From positions 1,267,001 to 1,331,000 of the forward strand of contig NZ_CP034783.1 of NCBI RefSeq assembly GCF_006094435.1: a stretch of DNA of 64,000 bases, written 5' to 3'. Both the position numbers and the translations under genes were made by a program. This stretch comes from Pseudomonas sp. MPC6 (GTDB lineage Bacteria > Pseudomonadota > Gammaproteobacteria > Pseudomonadales > Pseudomonadaceae). Position 1 is the first letter of the stretch. Every line of letters starts with the position of its first letter. Positions 1,171-59,387 of the stretch are shown piece by piece. The notes under the pieces were generated by a model. It had not been told where the DNA came from, did no database searches, and saw only the letters and a program-made list of their open reading frames with translations.

Positions 1171-1333
1171 GTGGCGCTTCATTTAGCGTCCACCGATTTA
1201 TGGTGGCTGTGTGCGGGAGATCTTCGGGTCTGCCGAGGTTGCCTAACGACTCGGTCTTGCAGACCCGCATACAGCTGCCACCCATCATCTGCAAGTGATG
1301 CTGGCCGCTCCAACGTTCGTTAGGAGCTACAAA
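1171..1333 (+). ncRNA. Structured leader RNA with three-way junction and anti-Shine-Dalgarno loop
   Basis: Pairings seen: a first hairpin 1171-1178 with 1185-1193; an outer stem 1202-1207 with 1277-1282 continued by 1208-1217 with 1264-1273 (three-base bulge 1274-1276). The outer stem encloses hairpin I (1218-1222 with 1227-1231, loop TTCG closed by C-G) and hairpin II (1232-1237 with 1250-1255, 12-base loop). Loop II bases CCTAACGA (1242-1249) are perfectly complementary to TCGTTAGG (1317-1324), which includes part of the Shine-Dalgarno TAGGAG. A smaller hairpin can form at 1283-1300. A local stem GCTCC (1307-1311) with GGAGC (1323-1327) could also hide the ribosome binding site. A role in translational control is inference. 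The first hairpin begins a few bases before the predicted transcription start, so it may be DNA-level only. Confidence 0.6.
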
Positions 1334-1814: not shown

Positions 1815-3161
1815 GTGAAAAAGCCACCCATTCTGAAGGGCAAGTCCGACCCGATTTTCGACCTGTTGGCGCGATCGCCCCACAAGGAACGTCTCTCGGA
1901 CTACCTCGCCCTGCTTATGCCGATGGACGATCAGGGGCGTTACCTTCCGTTCGATGAATTGCGCTACCGCTGGCCGCCGGGGCTGGATTCGAAGCTGTGC
2001 TGGGCTCTGGTCAAGAAAGCCCGTACTGCCCAGTACTCAACCCTTCTGCCCTTGGGCGAGCCGATCCAGTGGGGCAAGTGTGTACTGACGCCACTGGCGC
2101 AAAAGGCGATGTCCATCGTCGACCGACAAGCGACGACTGCCGCGCTGGAATACATGACCAGCCAGATCGGTGAGCACGCGCACTTCAGTTATCTGCTCAA
2201 CGATTTGATTGAAGACGAAGCCATCAGCAGCAGCCAGCTTGAAGGCGCGGCAACCACCACGCGGGTGGCCAAAGACATGCTCAAGCGCAAGCGCCTGCCG
2301 CGTACGCCGGATGAGCGCATGGTGATCGGCAATTACAAGATGATGAACTTCGCCTGGGAGCACCGTTATGAACCCTTGAGTCTCGAGCTGATCACAGCGA
2401 TGCATCGCGTCGGTGTGGAAGGCATTGATGACGCGCAATATTCGCCGGGGGATTTCAGGGATAACGATGACGTGGTGGTGCAGGATGGCGAAGGCAACAC
2501 CGTCCATGCGCCACCCCCGGCAGCGGGGCTGGCTTTACGATTGCAGATGTTGGCGAAGTGGATCAATCAGTCTCACAACGATCCCGATCACGCGGATTAC
2601 CTTCATCCGTTGATCAAAGGCATCGCCCTGCATTTTGCACTGGGCTATGAACATCCTTTTCGCGATGGTAACGGCCGGGTCGCGCGCGCGTTGTTTTACT
2701 GGTTCATGTTCAAGAATGACTTCTCGGCCTTTCGCTACATCGCGATCAGCATTTTGTTGCGCAACGCGCCGCTGAAGTACGGGCGCTCGTATCTGAATAC
2801 CGAAGCCGACGATCTGGACCTGACCTATTTCATCGATTTCCAGTGCTCGGTCATCCTGCGGGCTGTCAGCAGTTTTACCGAGGCTTATCGGAAGAGCCTG
2901 GCCTATGCCGACACCTTTGATCGATGGCTAATGGCGTCAGGCTTTTTCGACCAGCTCACCGAGAAACAGCGAACCGTGTACCAAGTGGCCAAGAGTGGCA
3001 TGGCCAAGGAGTTCACGGCGGTCAATGTGAAGGAGAATCTGGGTTGTTCCTACAACACCGCGTCGGCGACCTTGAACGGGTTGGTGGCGCTGAAGGTGTT
3101 CGAGAAGAGGAAGATGGGACGGGAGTGGGTGTTCTTTCTGCGGGCGGCATCGACGCCCTGA
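1815..3161 (+). CDS. Fic-family protein (predicted AMPylase) with C-terminal winged helix
   Basis: Fic enzymes usually transfer AMP from ATP to hydroxyl side chains of target proteins. The catalytic motif HPFRDGNGR is intact from His280, so the protein should be active. An inhibitory motif of the form S-x-x-x-E-G (S139 to G144, within SSSQLEG) lies upstream in the same chain, which fits a class II self-inhibited Fic protein. The C-terminal 60 residues (NVKENLGCSYNTASATLNGL region) look like a winged helix-turn-helix and could bind DNA. GTG 1815 is the first start after an in-frame stop at 1794; its ribosome binding site is weak. The gene is solitary, with no antitoxin partner beside it. The target is unknown. 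Confidence 0.9.
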   Translation: MKKPPILKGKSDPIFDLLARSPHKERLSDYLALLMPMDDQGRYLPFDELRYRWPPGLDSKLCWALVKKARTAQYSTLLPLGEPIQWGKCVLTPLAQKAMSIVDRQATTAALEYMTSQIGEHAHFSYLLNDLIEDEAISSSQLEGAATTTRVAKDMLKRKRLPRTPDERMVIGNYKMMNFAWEHRYEPLSLELITAMHRVGVEGIDDAQYSPGDFRDNDDVVVQDGEGNTVHAPPPAAGLALRLQMLAKWINQSHNDPDHADYLHPLIKGIALHFALGYEHPFRDGNGRVARALFYWFMFKNDFSAFRYIAISILLRNAPLKYGRSYLNTEADDLDLTYFIDFQCSVILRAVSSFTEAYRKSLAYADTFDRWLMASGFFDQLTEKQRTVYQVAKSGMAKEFTAVNVKENLGCSYNTASATLNGLVALKVFEKRKMGREWVFFLRAASTP

Positions 3162-24338: not shown

Positions 24339-24484
24339 TATAAAATGCGCCGCTTTCCGGGGATCCCCTGGGAAGCCTAAATCCACACACGTGTCGACAC
24401 GATGACCTGGGTGCCTGAAGCGTAATGCTGCTGGTTGGTCATTGGGATACGTGGAGGCCAAACCCGACTTATTAAGGAACTATC
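24339..24484 (+). promoter_or_regulatory. rpsB promoter region and structured leader
   Basis: The 374-base gap between map and rpsB holds a -10 TATAAA (24339-24344) followed by a GC-rich discriminator (GCGCCGC), which is typical of stringently controlled ribosomal promoters. The -35 is weak. The leader then shows a hairpin around GGGGATCCCC (24359-24368) with outer TTCC/GGAA pairs, and a perfect palindrome CGTGTCGACACG (24390-24401). Gammaproteobacterial rpsB leaders are known to be bound by S2 protein for feedback control; that this one does so is inference. I see nothing else in 24111-24338. Confidence 0.55.
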
Positions 24485-32039: not shown

Positions 32040-34415
32040 ATGAAACGTCTGCTGCTAACTGCGGTTCTCACCGTATTGATGATCGCCGAAGTTCACGCCG
32101 AGTCCTTCACCATCTCTGATATTCGCGTCAATGGCCTCCAGCGGGTCTCCGCGGGGAGTGTCTTTGGTGCCTTGCCGTTGAACGTCGGTGAAAAGGCGGA
32201 CGATCGTCGCCTGGTGGAATCCACTCGTGCGCTGTTCAAAACCGGTTTCTTTCAGGATATCCAGTTGGGTCGCGACGGCAACGTCCTGGTCATCACGGTC
32301 GTCGAGCGACCCTCGGTCGCCAGTATCGAGATCGAGGGCAACAAAGCGATCTCCACTGAAGACCTGATGAAGGGCCTCAAACAATCCGGTCTGGCCGAAG
32401 GCGAGATCTTCCAGCGCGCCACCCTCGAAGGTGTGCGTAACGAACTGCAGCGCCAGTACGTCGCTCAGGGTCGCTACTCGGCCACTGTCGACACCGAAGT
32501 GGTGCCGCAGCCGCGTAACCGCGTTGCGCTGAAGGTCAACATCAACGAAGGCACCGTCGCCGCTATCCAGCACATCAACGTGGTGGGTAACACGGTCTTC
32601 GCCGACGAAGACCTGATCGACCTGTTCGAACTCAAGACCAGCAACTGGTTGTCGTTCTTCAAGAACGACGACAAGTACGCTCGTGAAAAACTGTCCGGTG
32701 ACCTCGAGCGCCTGCGCTCCTACTACCTGGACCGTGGCTATATCAACATGGATATCGCTTCGACCCAGGTGTCCATCACCCCGGACAAGAAACATGTCTA
32801 TATCACCGTCAACGTCAACGAAGGCGAGAAGTACACCGTTCGTGACGTCAAGCTGAGCGGCGACCTGAAAGTCCCTGAAGACCAGGTCAAGTCCCTGTTG
32901 CTGGTGCAGAAAGGCCAGGTGTTCTCGCGCAAGCTGATGACCACCACCTCGGAACTGATCACCCGCCGCCTCGGTAACGAGGGTTACACCTTCGCCAACG
33001 TCAACGGCGTGCCTCAGCCTCACGAAGACGATCACACGGTAGACATCACGTTCGCCGTCGATCCGGGCAAGCGTGCCTACGTCAACCGTATCAACTTCCG
33101 TGGCAACACCAAGTCGGAAGACGAAGTGCTGCGCCGCGAAATGCGTCAGCTGGAAGGCGGCTGGGCTTCGACCTACCTGATCGACCAGTCCAAGACCCGT
33201 CTTGAGCGCCTGGGCTTCTTCAAGGAAGTCAACGTTGAAACCCCGGCCGTACCGGGCGTCGACGACCAGGTTGATGTGAACTACAGCGTGGAAGAGCAAG
33301 CCTCTGGTTCGATCACCGCCAGCGTCGGTTTCGCCCAGAGCGCCGGTCTGATCCTCGGTGGTTCGATTACCCAGAACAACTTCCTCGGTACCGGTAACAA
33401 GGTCAGCATCGGCCTGACCCGCAGTGAATACCAGAGCCGCTATAACTTTGGTTATGTCGACCCCTACTGGACGGCTGATGGCGTGAGCCTGGGCTACAAC
33501 GCGTTCTACCGCACCACCGACTACAAAGACCTCGATGTCGACGTAGCCAGCTATGCCGTAGACAGCCTGGGTGCTGGCGTGAGCGTCGGCTACCCGATCA
33601 GCGAAACGTCGCGCCTGACCTTCGGCCTGACGGCGCAACAAGACAAGATCAAGACGGGCGTCTACACCGTTGACGAGATCTTCGACTTCGTGAACAAGGA
33701 AGGCGACAACTACCTGAACTTCAAGGCCTCGGCCGGCTGGTCCGAATCCACCCTGAACAAGGGCGTACTCGCTACCCGTGGCCGTTCCCAGAGCCTGGTG
33801 CTGGAAACCACCACCCCTGGCAGCGACCTGTCGTTCTTCAAGCTCGATTACCGTGGCCAGCTGTTCCAGCCATTGAGCGAGAACTACACCATGCGCCTGC
33901 ACACCGAATTGGGTTATGGCGACGGTTACGGTTCGACCGATGGCTTGCCATTCTATGAAAACTACTATGCTGGTGGTTTCAACTCGGTGCGTGGCTTCAA
34001 GGACAGTACGTTGGGTCCACGCAGTACGCCTAGCCGTGGTACAAACCCGGGTACATTGGCCGATCCGGACCAGGATCCGCTGCCGTTTGGTGGCAACGTC
34101 CTGATCCAGGGCGGTGTGGAGCTTCTGTTCCCGCTGCCGTTCGTCAAGGATCAACGTTCCCTGCGCACGTCGGTATTCTGGGATGTGGGTAACGTCTTCG
34201 ACTCGAAATGCGAAGACACCACCAACGCAAACGGTTCGTCGTCCAATACCAAGTGCAACGATATCAGTCTGAGCAACATGGCCAGTTCCGTCGGTGTCGG
34301 CGTGACCTGGGTCACCGCACTGGGTCCTCTGAGCTTCGCGTTGGCCATGCCGGTCAAGAAACCGGATGACGCTGAGACTCAAGTGTTCCAATTCTCCCTC
34401 GGCCAGACGTTCTAA
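32040..34415 (+). CDS. bamA: Outer membrane assembly factor BamA
   Basis: Central Omp85 protein that inserts beta-barrel proteins into the outer membrane. The 791-residue protein starts with a signal peptide (MKRLLLTAVLTVLMIAEVHA), then five POTRA domains (about residues 22-420), then the 16-strand barrel ending in the outer-membrane signal FQFSLGQTF with terminal Phe. The barrel carries the SVRGFKDSTLGP element (VRGF motif of lid loop 6). ATG 32040 follows AAAGGA; an in-frame ATG at 32013 would spoil the signal peptide. Confidence 0.98.
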   Translation: MKRLLLTAVLTVLMIAEVHAESFTISDIRVNGLQRVSAGSVFGALPLNVGEKADDRRLVESTRALFKTGFFQDIQLGRDGNVLVITVVERPSVASIEIEGNKAISTEDLMKGLKQSGLAEGEIFQRATLEGVRNELQRQYVAQGRYSATVDTEVVPQPRNRVALKVNINEGTVAAIQHINVVGNTVFADEDLIDLFELKTSNWLSFFKNDDKYAREKLSGDLERLRSYYLDRGYINMDIASTQVSITPDKKHVYITVNVNEGEKYTVRDVKLSGDLKVPEDQVKSLLLVQKGQVFSRKLMTTTSELITRRLGNEGYTFANVNGVPQPHEDDHTVDITFAVDPGKRAYVNRINFRGNTKSEDEVLRREMRQLEGGWASTYLIDQSKTRLERLGFFKEVNVETPAVPGVDDQVDVNYSVEEQASGSITASVGFAQSAGLILGGSITQNNFLGTGNKVSIGLTRSEYQSRYNFGYVDPYWTADGVSLGYNAFYRTTDYKDLDVDVASYAVDSLGAGVSVGYPISETSRLTFGLTAQQDKIKTGVYTVDEIFDFVNKEGDNYLNFKASAGWSESTLNKGVLATRGRSQSLVLETTTPGSDLSFFKLDYRGQLFQPLSENYTMRLHTELGYGDGYGSTDGLPFYENYYAGGFNSVRGFKDSTLGPRSTPSRGTNPGTLADPDQDPLPFGGNVLIQGGVELLFPLPFVKDQRSLRTSVFWDVGNVFDSKCEDTTNANGSSSNTKCNDISLSNMASSVGVGVTWVTALGPLSFALAMPVKKPDDAETQVFQFSLGQTF

Positions 34416-59085: not shown

Positions 59086-59257
59086 CTGTTGTAAGTGTTC
59101 GTTATTTTTACAGTGTGGCAGTCTTCCATTCTCCGCCCACGGATTTCTTATCCGGTTGATTCATAGACTTATTTTATTAAGTTACGAGCATATGACAGCG
59201 CATTCTGGCGTTTGTGGCCGCTTGCTCCCGGCCGGGAACGCTCTAGTATTCAGGTTG

Positions 59258-59387
59258 TGTCAACGGACAGACACGCCCTTCAAGGATGAGGGGAAAGGAC
59301 ATCGCAGGACGCGATTCATCAGGACGATGAAAAGGAACACAGGGACTAGGGAAAAAAATGTGGGCGGGTCAAACCGCCCCTTTTTTT
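59258..59387 (+). ncRNA. rsmZ: RsmZ regulatory RNA
   Basis: A roughly 130-base small RNA that soaks up RsmA/RsmE proteins and so relieves their translational repression. Nine GGA motifs are seen (first bases 59265, 59284, 59292, 59297, 59307, 59322, 59334, 59343, 59350). Two are shown in ideal loops: ATCGC-AGGAC-GCGAT (59301-59315) and TTCATC-AGGAC-GATGAA (59315-59331); these share one base, so exact pairing needs folding. A -10-like TAGTAT lies at 59244-59249. The RNA ends with GGGCGG (59362-59367) paired with CCGCCC (59374-59379) and a T run. The place between rpoS and fdxA is the known rsmZ locus. Confidence 0.93.

Follow-up and report, generated by a model that had tools for sequence, protein, structure and literature searches.

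A probable C4-type antisense RNA, one of many self-matched copies, in the leader of a Pseudomonas DUF6124 gene

We found that the leader of a small gene in Pseudomonas sp. MPC6 very probably contains an antisense riboregulator of the C4 type. Two segments of the C4 RNA, a′ and b′, are complementary to segments a2 and b2 downstream, b2 lying at the ribosome-binding site of the following gene, and also to segments a1 and b1 upstream. The window, that is the whole stretch of 64,000 nucleotides analysed, comes from a 7.2 Mb genome (G000), and its relevant features are these:

2–466: end of an AcrB/RND gene
1061–1089, + strand: promoter-like TTGTCC-N17-TAGCCT, with a predicted transcription start near 1096
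1083–1135, + strand: c4-a1b1 element (RF03163, 46.8 bits, gathering cut-off 46.7)
1121–1127, + strand: a1, CTGCAAG, in the loop of CGGG 1116–1119/CCCG 1128–1131, complementary to a′
1140–1148, + strand: b1, TTGTTAGGC, complementary to b′
1140–1169, + strand: internal promoter-like TTGTTA-N18-TATAAT between b1 and C4 (10 of 12 matches)
1171–1193, + strand: predicted hairpin just 5′ of C4, GTGGCGCT/AGCGTCCAC
1196–1285, + strand: C4 antisense RNA (RF01695, 67.3 bits, cut-off 45)
1202–1282, + strand: predicted mature C4, delimited by comparison with P1 C4 (GG start, CCACC end)
1238–1249, + strand: 12-nt loop of hairpin III, holding b′ (from the Rfam model alignment)
1242–1249, + strand: b′, CCTAACGA, complementary to b2 and b1
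1256–1262, + strand: a′, CTTGCAG, complementary to CTGCAAG at 1289–1295 and 1121–1127
1274–1282, + strand: c′, GCTGCCACC, forming the 3′ side of C4 stem I or pairing partly with c2
1289–1295, + strand: a2, CTGCAAG, in the small hairpin CATCAT 1283–1288/GTGATG 1295–1300, complementary to a′
1302–1309, + strand: c2, partial complement of c′, weak in the window copy (TGGC 1302–1305 in the fold)
1307–1327, + strand: predicted hairpin hiding the Shine-Dalgarno (SD), GCTCC(AAC)/(GTT)GGAGC
1317–1324, + strand: b2, TCGTTAGG, overlapping the SD, complementary to b′
1334–1615, + strand: DUF6124 gene (93 aa; PF19619, E 1.1e-24), between the AcrB/RND end and the Fic gene
1815–3161: Fic-domain gene

The closest named relative of the DUF6124 protein is from Pseudomonas fluorescens isolate PS862. 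Searches of NCBIfam, PHROGs and PADLOC with the protein gave no match, and comparison with solved structures gave weak matches only, the best (E 0.086) covering 29 residues of UDP-N-acetylglucosamine 1-carboxyvinyltransferase. Our literature search found no mention of DUF6124 and a single paper naming DUF3077, a domain encoded behind another C4 copy of the genome. The best PADLOC match of the Fic gene is SoFic. Elsewhere in the window are a PrrB/RsmZ sRNA (59256–59387) and a t44 RNA (24366–24463).

The covariance model of RF01695 places the C4 well within its family; the RF03163 match exceeds its cut-off by just 0.1 bit. The alignment to the RF01695 model (positions 1–87) contains all three C4 helices with b′ in the third loop, which is closed by CCGAG 1233–1237/CTCGG 1250–1254. 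Unconstrained single-sequence folding of the C4 stretch returned stem I and a hairpin III, with the model's hairpin II absent. GGT at 1202–1204 is a candidate RNase P processing motif (GGW). The a1/b1 element is upstream of C4, and the two would share a single transcript. The motif TTGNNN-N16..18-TANNNT precedes C4 at 25 of 31 loci of this genome, compared with 7% of shuffles, and at 27/38, 26/31 and 20/33 loci of the three other sets described below; a general promoter scan did not report the 1061–1089 site, whose −10 is weak. The internal promoter-like site would yield C4 without a1/b1. Its −35 falls within b1, and its TATAAT is kept in six related leaders (L066–L069, L215 and L216).

The gene behind the window C4 is of the DUF6124 type and not an icd/antirepressor gene as in the immI operon of P1 and P7; Bro-N genes do stand behind some related C4 leaders (L037, L068 and L144). 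There was no isrK (RF01394) match at E ≤ 0.01 at the window locus (L054), and five of 20 loci scanned had one above cut-off (L051, L126, L130, L135 and L199). A U-run lies just 5′ of C4 at 12 of 31 loci of the genome and not in the window copy. Because the window locus has neither isrK match nor U-run, no short isoform is predicted there, and we rejected an isrK-type isoform for this copy. Some of the U-run copies carry a terminator-like hairpin, such as L051, which is also among the isrK matches.

The 151 parsed loci comprise all 32 C4s of this genome, 40 of the 42 in a second genome (G019), 35 found elsewhere in the genus and 44, P1 included, from beyond it; the last two groups are mostly best-scoring and thus non-random samples. 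Eighteen were left out because they lacked a usable start codon, had too little upstream sequence or had a b′ that could not be parsed, leaving sets of 31 (own genome), 38 (G019), 31 (other Pseudomonas) and 33 (non-Pseudomonas). Mean duplex energies of own pairs were compared with 20,000 shuffles of partners per set, uncorrected for kinship. For b′/b2 the means, own against shuffled and in that order of sets, were −13.2 v −7.9, −14.0 v −8.1, −16.9 v −10.9 and −16.8 v −9.4; for a′/a2, −9.8 v −7.0, −10.4 v −6.9, −11.0 v −9.7 and −11.6 v −8.3; and for a′/a1, −11.9 v −10.1, −12.9 v −11.0, −15.4 v −12.4 and −17.0 v −12.5. No shuffle reached the own value for any of these pairs in any set. The same was true of b′/b1 (−15.3 v −9.7, −14.3 v −9.3, −13.2 v −11.6 and −15.0 v −10.0; 0/20,000 each) in the 32 nt behind a1, where a1 is itself positioned by its match to a′; searched in a 75-nt window, b′/b1 gave no signal. 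The control pairs b′/a2 and a′/b2 gave none in the own-genome set. Of the four sets, only the non-Pseudomonas one showed a signal when a′ was tested against far-upstream sequence (1/20,000), so relatedness or composition contributes there; for b′ the same control in G019 gave weaker pairing than shuffled partners (19,944/20,000). All four pairings, a′/a1, a′/a2, b′/b1 and b′/b2, thus covary.

The sequence-only reading of this DNA had noticed the complementarity of hairpin loop and SD, with CCTAACGA, TCGTTAGG, GCTCC (1307–1311) and GGAGC (1323–1327) all exactly placed, and had proposed covariation of loop and SD as its test; this covariation is present in all four sets. It had also put the probability of such an 8-base match by chance at about one in a thousand. 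Among the 31 loci of the genome, 2 of 930 mismatched loop/leader combinations (0.2%, the same order) reach an 8-bp Watson-Crick run, as against 9 of 31 own pairs. Chance can evidently produce such a run, and the two mismatched cases are examples; the covariation, the mismatched-pair counts and the Rfam matches leave virtually nothing to the idea that the window's complementarity is accidental, and we regard it as ruled out. Absent from that reading were the a′/a2/a1 complementarity, the upstream b1 and its pairing with the loop, the Rfam identity and the competing cis fold of the leader.

Related leaders show the matched changes individually. L066 and L067 keep loop and SD region unchanged, and in the changed-loop homologs inspected (L068, L069, L213 and L217) the SD changes to match each time. 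L068 and L069 have GGTCTCCT in the loop and AGGAGATT in the SD region, with AGGAGACC as the b1 of L069. The gene behind L068 encodes a protein with Bro-N, a domain of phage antirepressors, and the L069 gene is similar by eye. The most informative locus is L213, the positional ortholog in P. fluorescens PS862, where the AcrB end is 100% and the DUF6124 protein 95% identical; the Fic gene is matched there only in pieces. Its recognition set differs throughout and is mutually matched: loop TTCCTGAAGT, SD ACTTCAGGA, a1 and a2 TTTCGCAG. Given this ortholog and the covariation in four sets, we take the loop/SD pairing to be real. By the criterion of sequence comparison the pairing is functional, and it belongs to an RNA family recognized by Rfam.

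DNA identity between L213 and the window, in 50-base steps, is 0.88–0.96 in 2–451, 0.02–0.82 in the poorly alignable 452–1001, 0.92 and 0.90 in 1002–1101, 0.38–0.74 in 1102–1351 and 0.92–1.00 in 1352–1651. L215 has the reverse pattern, a gene less alike (0.56–0.86 in 1352–1651) and a cassette at 0.90–1.00 (1102–1301). The window cassette is ~95% identical to those of L215 and L216, and the L213 cassette 95–96% identical to those of L217, L222 and L227. The simplest reading of these alignments is that the recognition cassette has been swapped as a block between loci.

We found 32 C4 matches in this genome, all above cut-off, together with 32 c4-a1b1 matches (19 above cut-off) and 27 DUF6124 matches. 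Comparing positions by eye, 23 of the 32 C4s are directly 5′ of a DUF6124 match. The remaining nine are varied: a DUF3077 gene follows L025 and, by eye, what may be a remnant of such a gene follows L039; L037 has Bro-N, and L027, L050 and L056 have small proteins without Pfam match; by eye the L040 gene resembles that of L027 and L053 has a DUF6124-like start; behind the C4 of L026 there is no usable gene start. Three c4-a1b1 matches have no adjoining C4 (G000:C4:425083–425135, 1977537–1977589 and 4294295–4294344, the last two below cut-off); these could possibly be orphan antagonists.

Across the genus, 138 of 149 genomes carry C4, with up to 27 candidates scored per genome. Four genomes were scored more fully and have 42, 38, 30 and 29 matches at E ≤ 0.001, of which one match in each of three genomes is below cut-off. 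In G009 C4s are clustered, with three in ~300 bases (C21:16214–16512) and three in ~560 bases (C58:321065–321620). Under stricter filters a phylum sample had a C4 match in 62 of 398 genomes. On viral contigs C4 was 5′ of the gene in all eight loci found. Of 80 named DUF6124 loci, 20 were tested and 15 had a C4 match; L214, L218, L219, L220 and L228 had no C4 at gathering score and kept the gene and a c4-a1b1 match. The sequence leaves no room for C4 in the first four of these. In L214, L218 and L220 the SD region reads CTTTGGGAG and has lost its match to a b′ of the window type. The retention of the gene without C4 match in five of 20 related named loci led us to reject C4 as the antitoxin to a lethal gene.

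These five loci, the copy L026 without usable gene start and the origin of C4 as a phage regulator would all suit old prophage remnants in which the complementarity is inherited and unused. Unused pairs would decay, yet the segments vary between loci and still match, and C4 is in nearly all genomes of the genus with 29–42 matches (E ≤ 0.001) in each of the five fully scored; we consider this reading very improbable.

Each C4 is best matched to its own leader in most cases. With a and b energies summed, the own leader ranked first among the 31 targets for 26 of the 31 C4s, and the mean was −21.7 for own and −12.0 for other pairs. The other five have a better predicted target in another leader, and an a′ sequence common to several loci of the genome is a further hint of cross-talk. 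A network in which each C4 mainly represses paralogous leaders elsewhere is nonetheless improbable in view of these means and the 26 self-matched copies.

This kind of pairing is already known from c4 of phages P1 and P7 and from isrK of Gifsy-1. The P1 c4/icd-ant leader is like the window leader in its order a1-b1-C4-a2-b2-gene, in having b′ as the hairpin III loop with a′ behind it, in b2 at the SD, and in its GGT start and CCACC end. The P7 c4/icd-ant leader has the same features. The window leader differs from both in being chromosomal, in its DUF6124 gene in place of icd/ant, in its recognition sequences and in having 32 copies in one genome. The available parts of the literature describe P1 c4 as a trans-acting RNA (PMC8546580, PMC12197685) that is processed by RNase P, with a GGW processing motif (PMC5320573). 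The last of these, in its accessible text, also describes many C4-like RNAs in Acinetobacter baumannii, with the GGW motif and with read coverage consistent with processing. A. baumannii Group 1 resembles the Pseudomonas genome in its many chromosomal copies, variable recognition loops and GGW motif; its targets are left open in that text, whereas most of the Pseudomonas C4s adjoin their best-matched leader. RF01695 and RF03163, the families matched in the window, are listed by Weinberg et al. (2010), in the available text as a table entry and a remark (PMC2864571).

The Gifsy-1 IsrK-orf45-anrP leader shares with the window the succession of c4-a1b1, C4 and gene, and differs by the isrK match and U-run that the window lacks (no isrK there at E ≤ 0.01). 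By Rfam, isrK (34240–34316) overlaps c4-a1b1 (34277–34329) in the Gifsy-1 record, and a C4 (34131–34214) is directly behind c4-a1b1, before an antirepressor-like gene; read by eye, b′/b2 is CGGTGAT/ATCACCG. PMC4825925, in its accessible text, reports that the short IsrK acts in trans to activate the read-through transcript and that the leader has two conformations, probed through the compensatory pairs G28/C162 and G31/C159 and through G114 and C175; of these conformations structure A is silent and structure B active for AnrP. When nucleotides are counted by hand from 34316 as nt 1, the reported letter is present at each of the six sites: a1 contains G28 and G31, a′ contains C159 and C162, and C4 stem I contains G114 and C175. 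On this count structure A would correspond to pairing of a1 with a′ in cis and structure B to the folded C4, and the comparison of sequences suggests that IsrK of Gifsy-1 represents the a1/b1 portion of a C4 leader. Since the C4-like fold was translationally active in cis in Gifsy-1, C4 folding alone does not equal repression. The term "C4 RNA" is absent from the main text of PMC4825925 as available, and searching isrK together with "C4 antisense" in the accessible literature gave only work on RNAs in Xylella vesicles. C4 and isrK stand in one transcription unit in a Burkholderia table (PMC4603805, available part).

The window leader likewise has two predicted folds. Prefixes beginning at 1090 were folded singly by minimum energy. 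The prefix to 1285, the C4 end, forms C4 with stem I (−87.5 kcal/mol); from 1297 on a1/b1 hold a′/b′ instead (−88.1), and from 1312 on c2 also holds c′, in full-leader folds through GCCA 1277–1280, followed by the SD in its own hairpin (−107.2 kcal/mol at 1330). Up to the start codon, the leader thus has its energy minimum in the a1b1/a′b′ state, in which C4 is not folded, and extension of the transcript to 1400 favours C4 again. Unconstrained folds contain stem I (≥10 bp) at 14/31, 16/38, 22/31 and 13/33 loci of the four sets. As the fold changes with prefix length and stem I appears in part of the loci, the predicted balance between the folds of the leader is a fine one.

The SD hairpin, also proposed by the earlier reading, is predicted at −9.9 kcal/mol, and the tendency is kept in related leaders. 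The segment 5′ of the SD pairs better with the SD region of its own leader than with SD regions from other loci (z −3.3, −5.8, −2.6 and −3.8; n = 31, 39, 31 and 35), and at the loci with recognized SD (30, 33, 31 and 35) mean SD pairing probability is 0.67–0.74 compared with 0.49–0.57 when the upstream part is shuffled (0.80 v 0.63 for the window copy). The further suggestion that the hairpin loop still exposes TCGTTA holds in part: GTTC 1315–1318 is unpaired, and the remainder is closed because AAC 1312–1314/GTT 1319–1321 extend the hairpin.

The balance of folds makes room for a purely cis switch, in which C4 is never a separate RNA and the leader chooses between the a1b1/a′b′ and C4 folds. 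Its minimum-energy fold is as this would require, in the two sets tested an own upstream part stabilizes the fold without stem I by ~6 and 8 kcal/mol more than a swapped one does, and the experiments on Gifsy-1, so far as that text is accessible, found two cis conformations. Against it stand the trans action and RNase P processing of P1 c4 and the coverage of the A. baumannii RNAs in the available texts cited above, and the maintenance of a′/a2 and b′/b2, which are outside both predicted cis folds. We judge a cis-only switch unlikely, though a serious candidate. What lasts of the earlier proposal of a translational switch is that loop-SD pairing could stop translation; its framing as a cis pseudoknot or kiss gives way to a C4 antisense RNA.

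A third pairing, c′/c2, may join the two folds. Here c′, the 3′ strand of stem I, is complementary to c2, between a2 and b2. Own against shuffled energies were −12.5 v −11.2 (1/20,000), −12.0 v −11.0 (10/20,000), −14.8 v −14.0 (2/20,000) and −14.6 v −11.3 (0/20,000). In the consensus register 78.7% of cells were paired compared with 75.0% shuffled (0/5000; 100 distinct pairs, 133 loci); the own-genome set alone gave no signal in this register (2212/5000), G019 and other Pseudomonas were weak (76 and 72/5000) and the set outside the genus was clear (0/5000). A control segment inside the gene also gave a weak signal outside the genus (119/20,000), and with the downstream part swapped the fold without stem I loses only 0.7 and 1.5 kcal/mol. 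P1 has CCTGCCAC/GTAGCAGG, with 7 of 8 pairs, Gifsy-1 an 8-bp match (−14.9), and the window a weak 4+3 bp (−10.0). These comparisons give moderate support to c′/c2 as a likely but unproven third pairing. It finds no mention in the accessible passages of the C4 and IsrK papers cited above.

From the features and the analogies we infer the following processing, repression and order of events, and any trigger. Transcription would run from ~1096 through a1/b1, C4 and a2/c2/b2 into the gene. C4 would fold into three hairpins and probably be trimmed, by analogy with P1 through RNase P at GGT 1202–1204; a′ and b′ could then bind a2 and b2 of the same or another leader copy, and initiation would be blocked where b2 overlaps the SD. 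In unprocessed leader a1/b1 would hold a′/b′ in cis, c2 would hold c′ and the SD would be closed in its local hairpin, a fold that by analogy with Gifsy-1 should be silent too. Most likely, on these analogies, the gene is kept off in two ways, by processed C4 on a2/b2 and by unprocessed leader hiding its SD. With two silent states, the default state of the gene would therefore be off, and its key would be its own RNA. Free RNA bearing a1/b1 may be the natural activator or antagonist, as is IsrK in Gifsy-1. The two-way silencing agrees with the "two ways of covering the SD" of the sequence-only reading.

Beyond the known kind of pairing are the 32 copies, the matching to own leaders, the cassettes that differ between orthologs as apparently exchanged blocks, the moderately supported c′/c2 and the suggested unification of C4 with IsrK. 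A broader view is that the genome holds some 30 separately keyed switches derived from the phage C4/IsrK leader, with cassettes moving as blocks independently of the gene and c′/c2 joining both folds, also in P1 and Gifsy-1; for us this could equally prove right or wrong. If true, each ~230-nt cassette would be repressor (C4), anti-repressor (a1/b1) and target (a2/b2) together, its movement between loci and species would change the "immunity type" of orthologous genes, and c′/c2 would unite folded C4 and the silent cis state in one two-state RNA. The many chromosomal C4 RNAs of Pseudomonas acquire likely targets in the leaders directly behind them, and dozens of natural antisense pairs, largely insulated from one another, become available for asking how specificity arises. 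The results suggest that the P1 c4 repressor and the Gifsy-1 IsrK activator, described separately, are two halves of one leader design.
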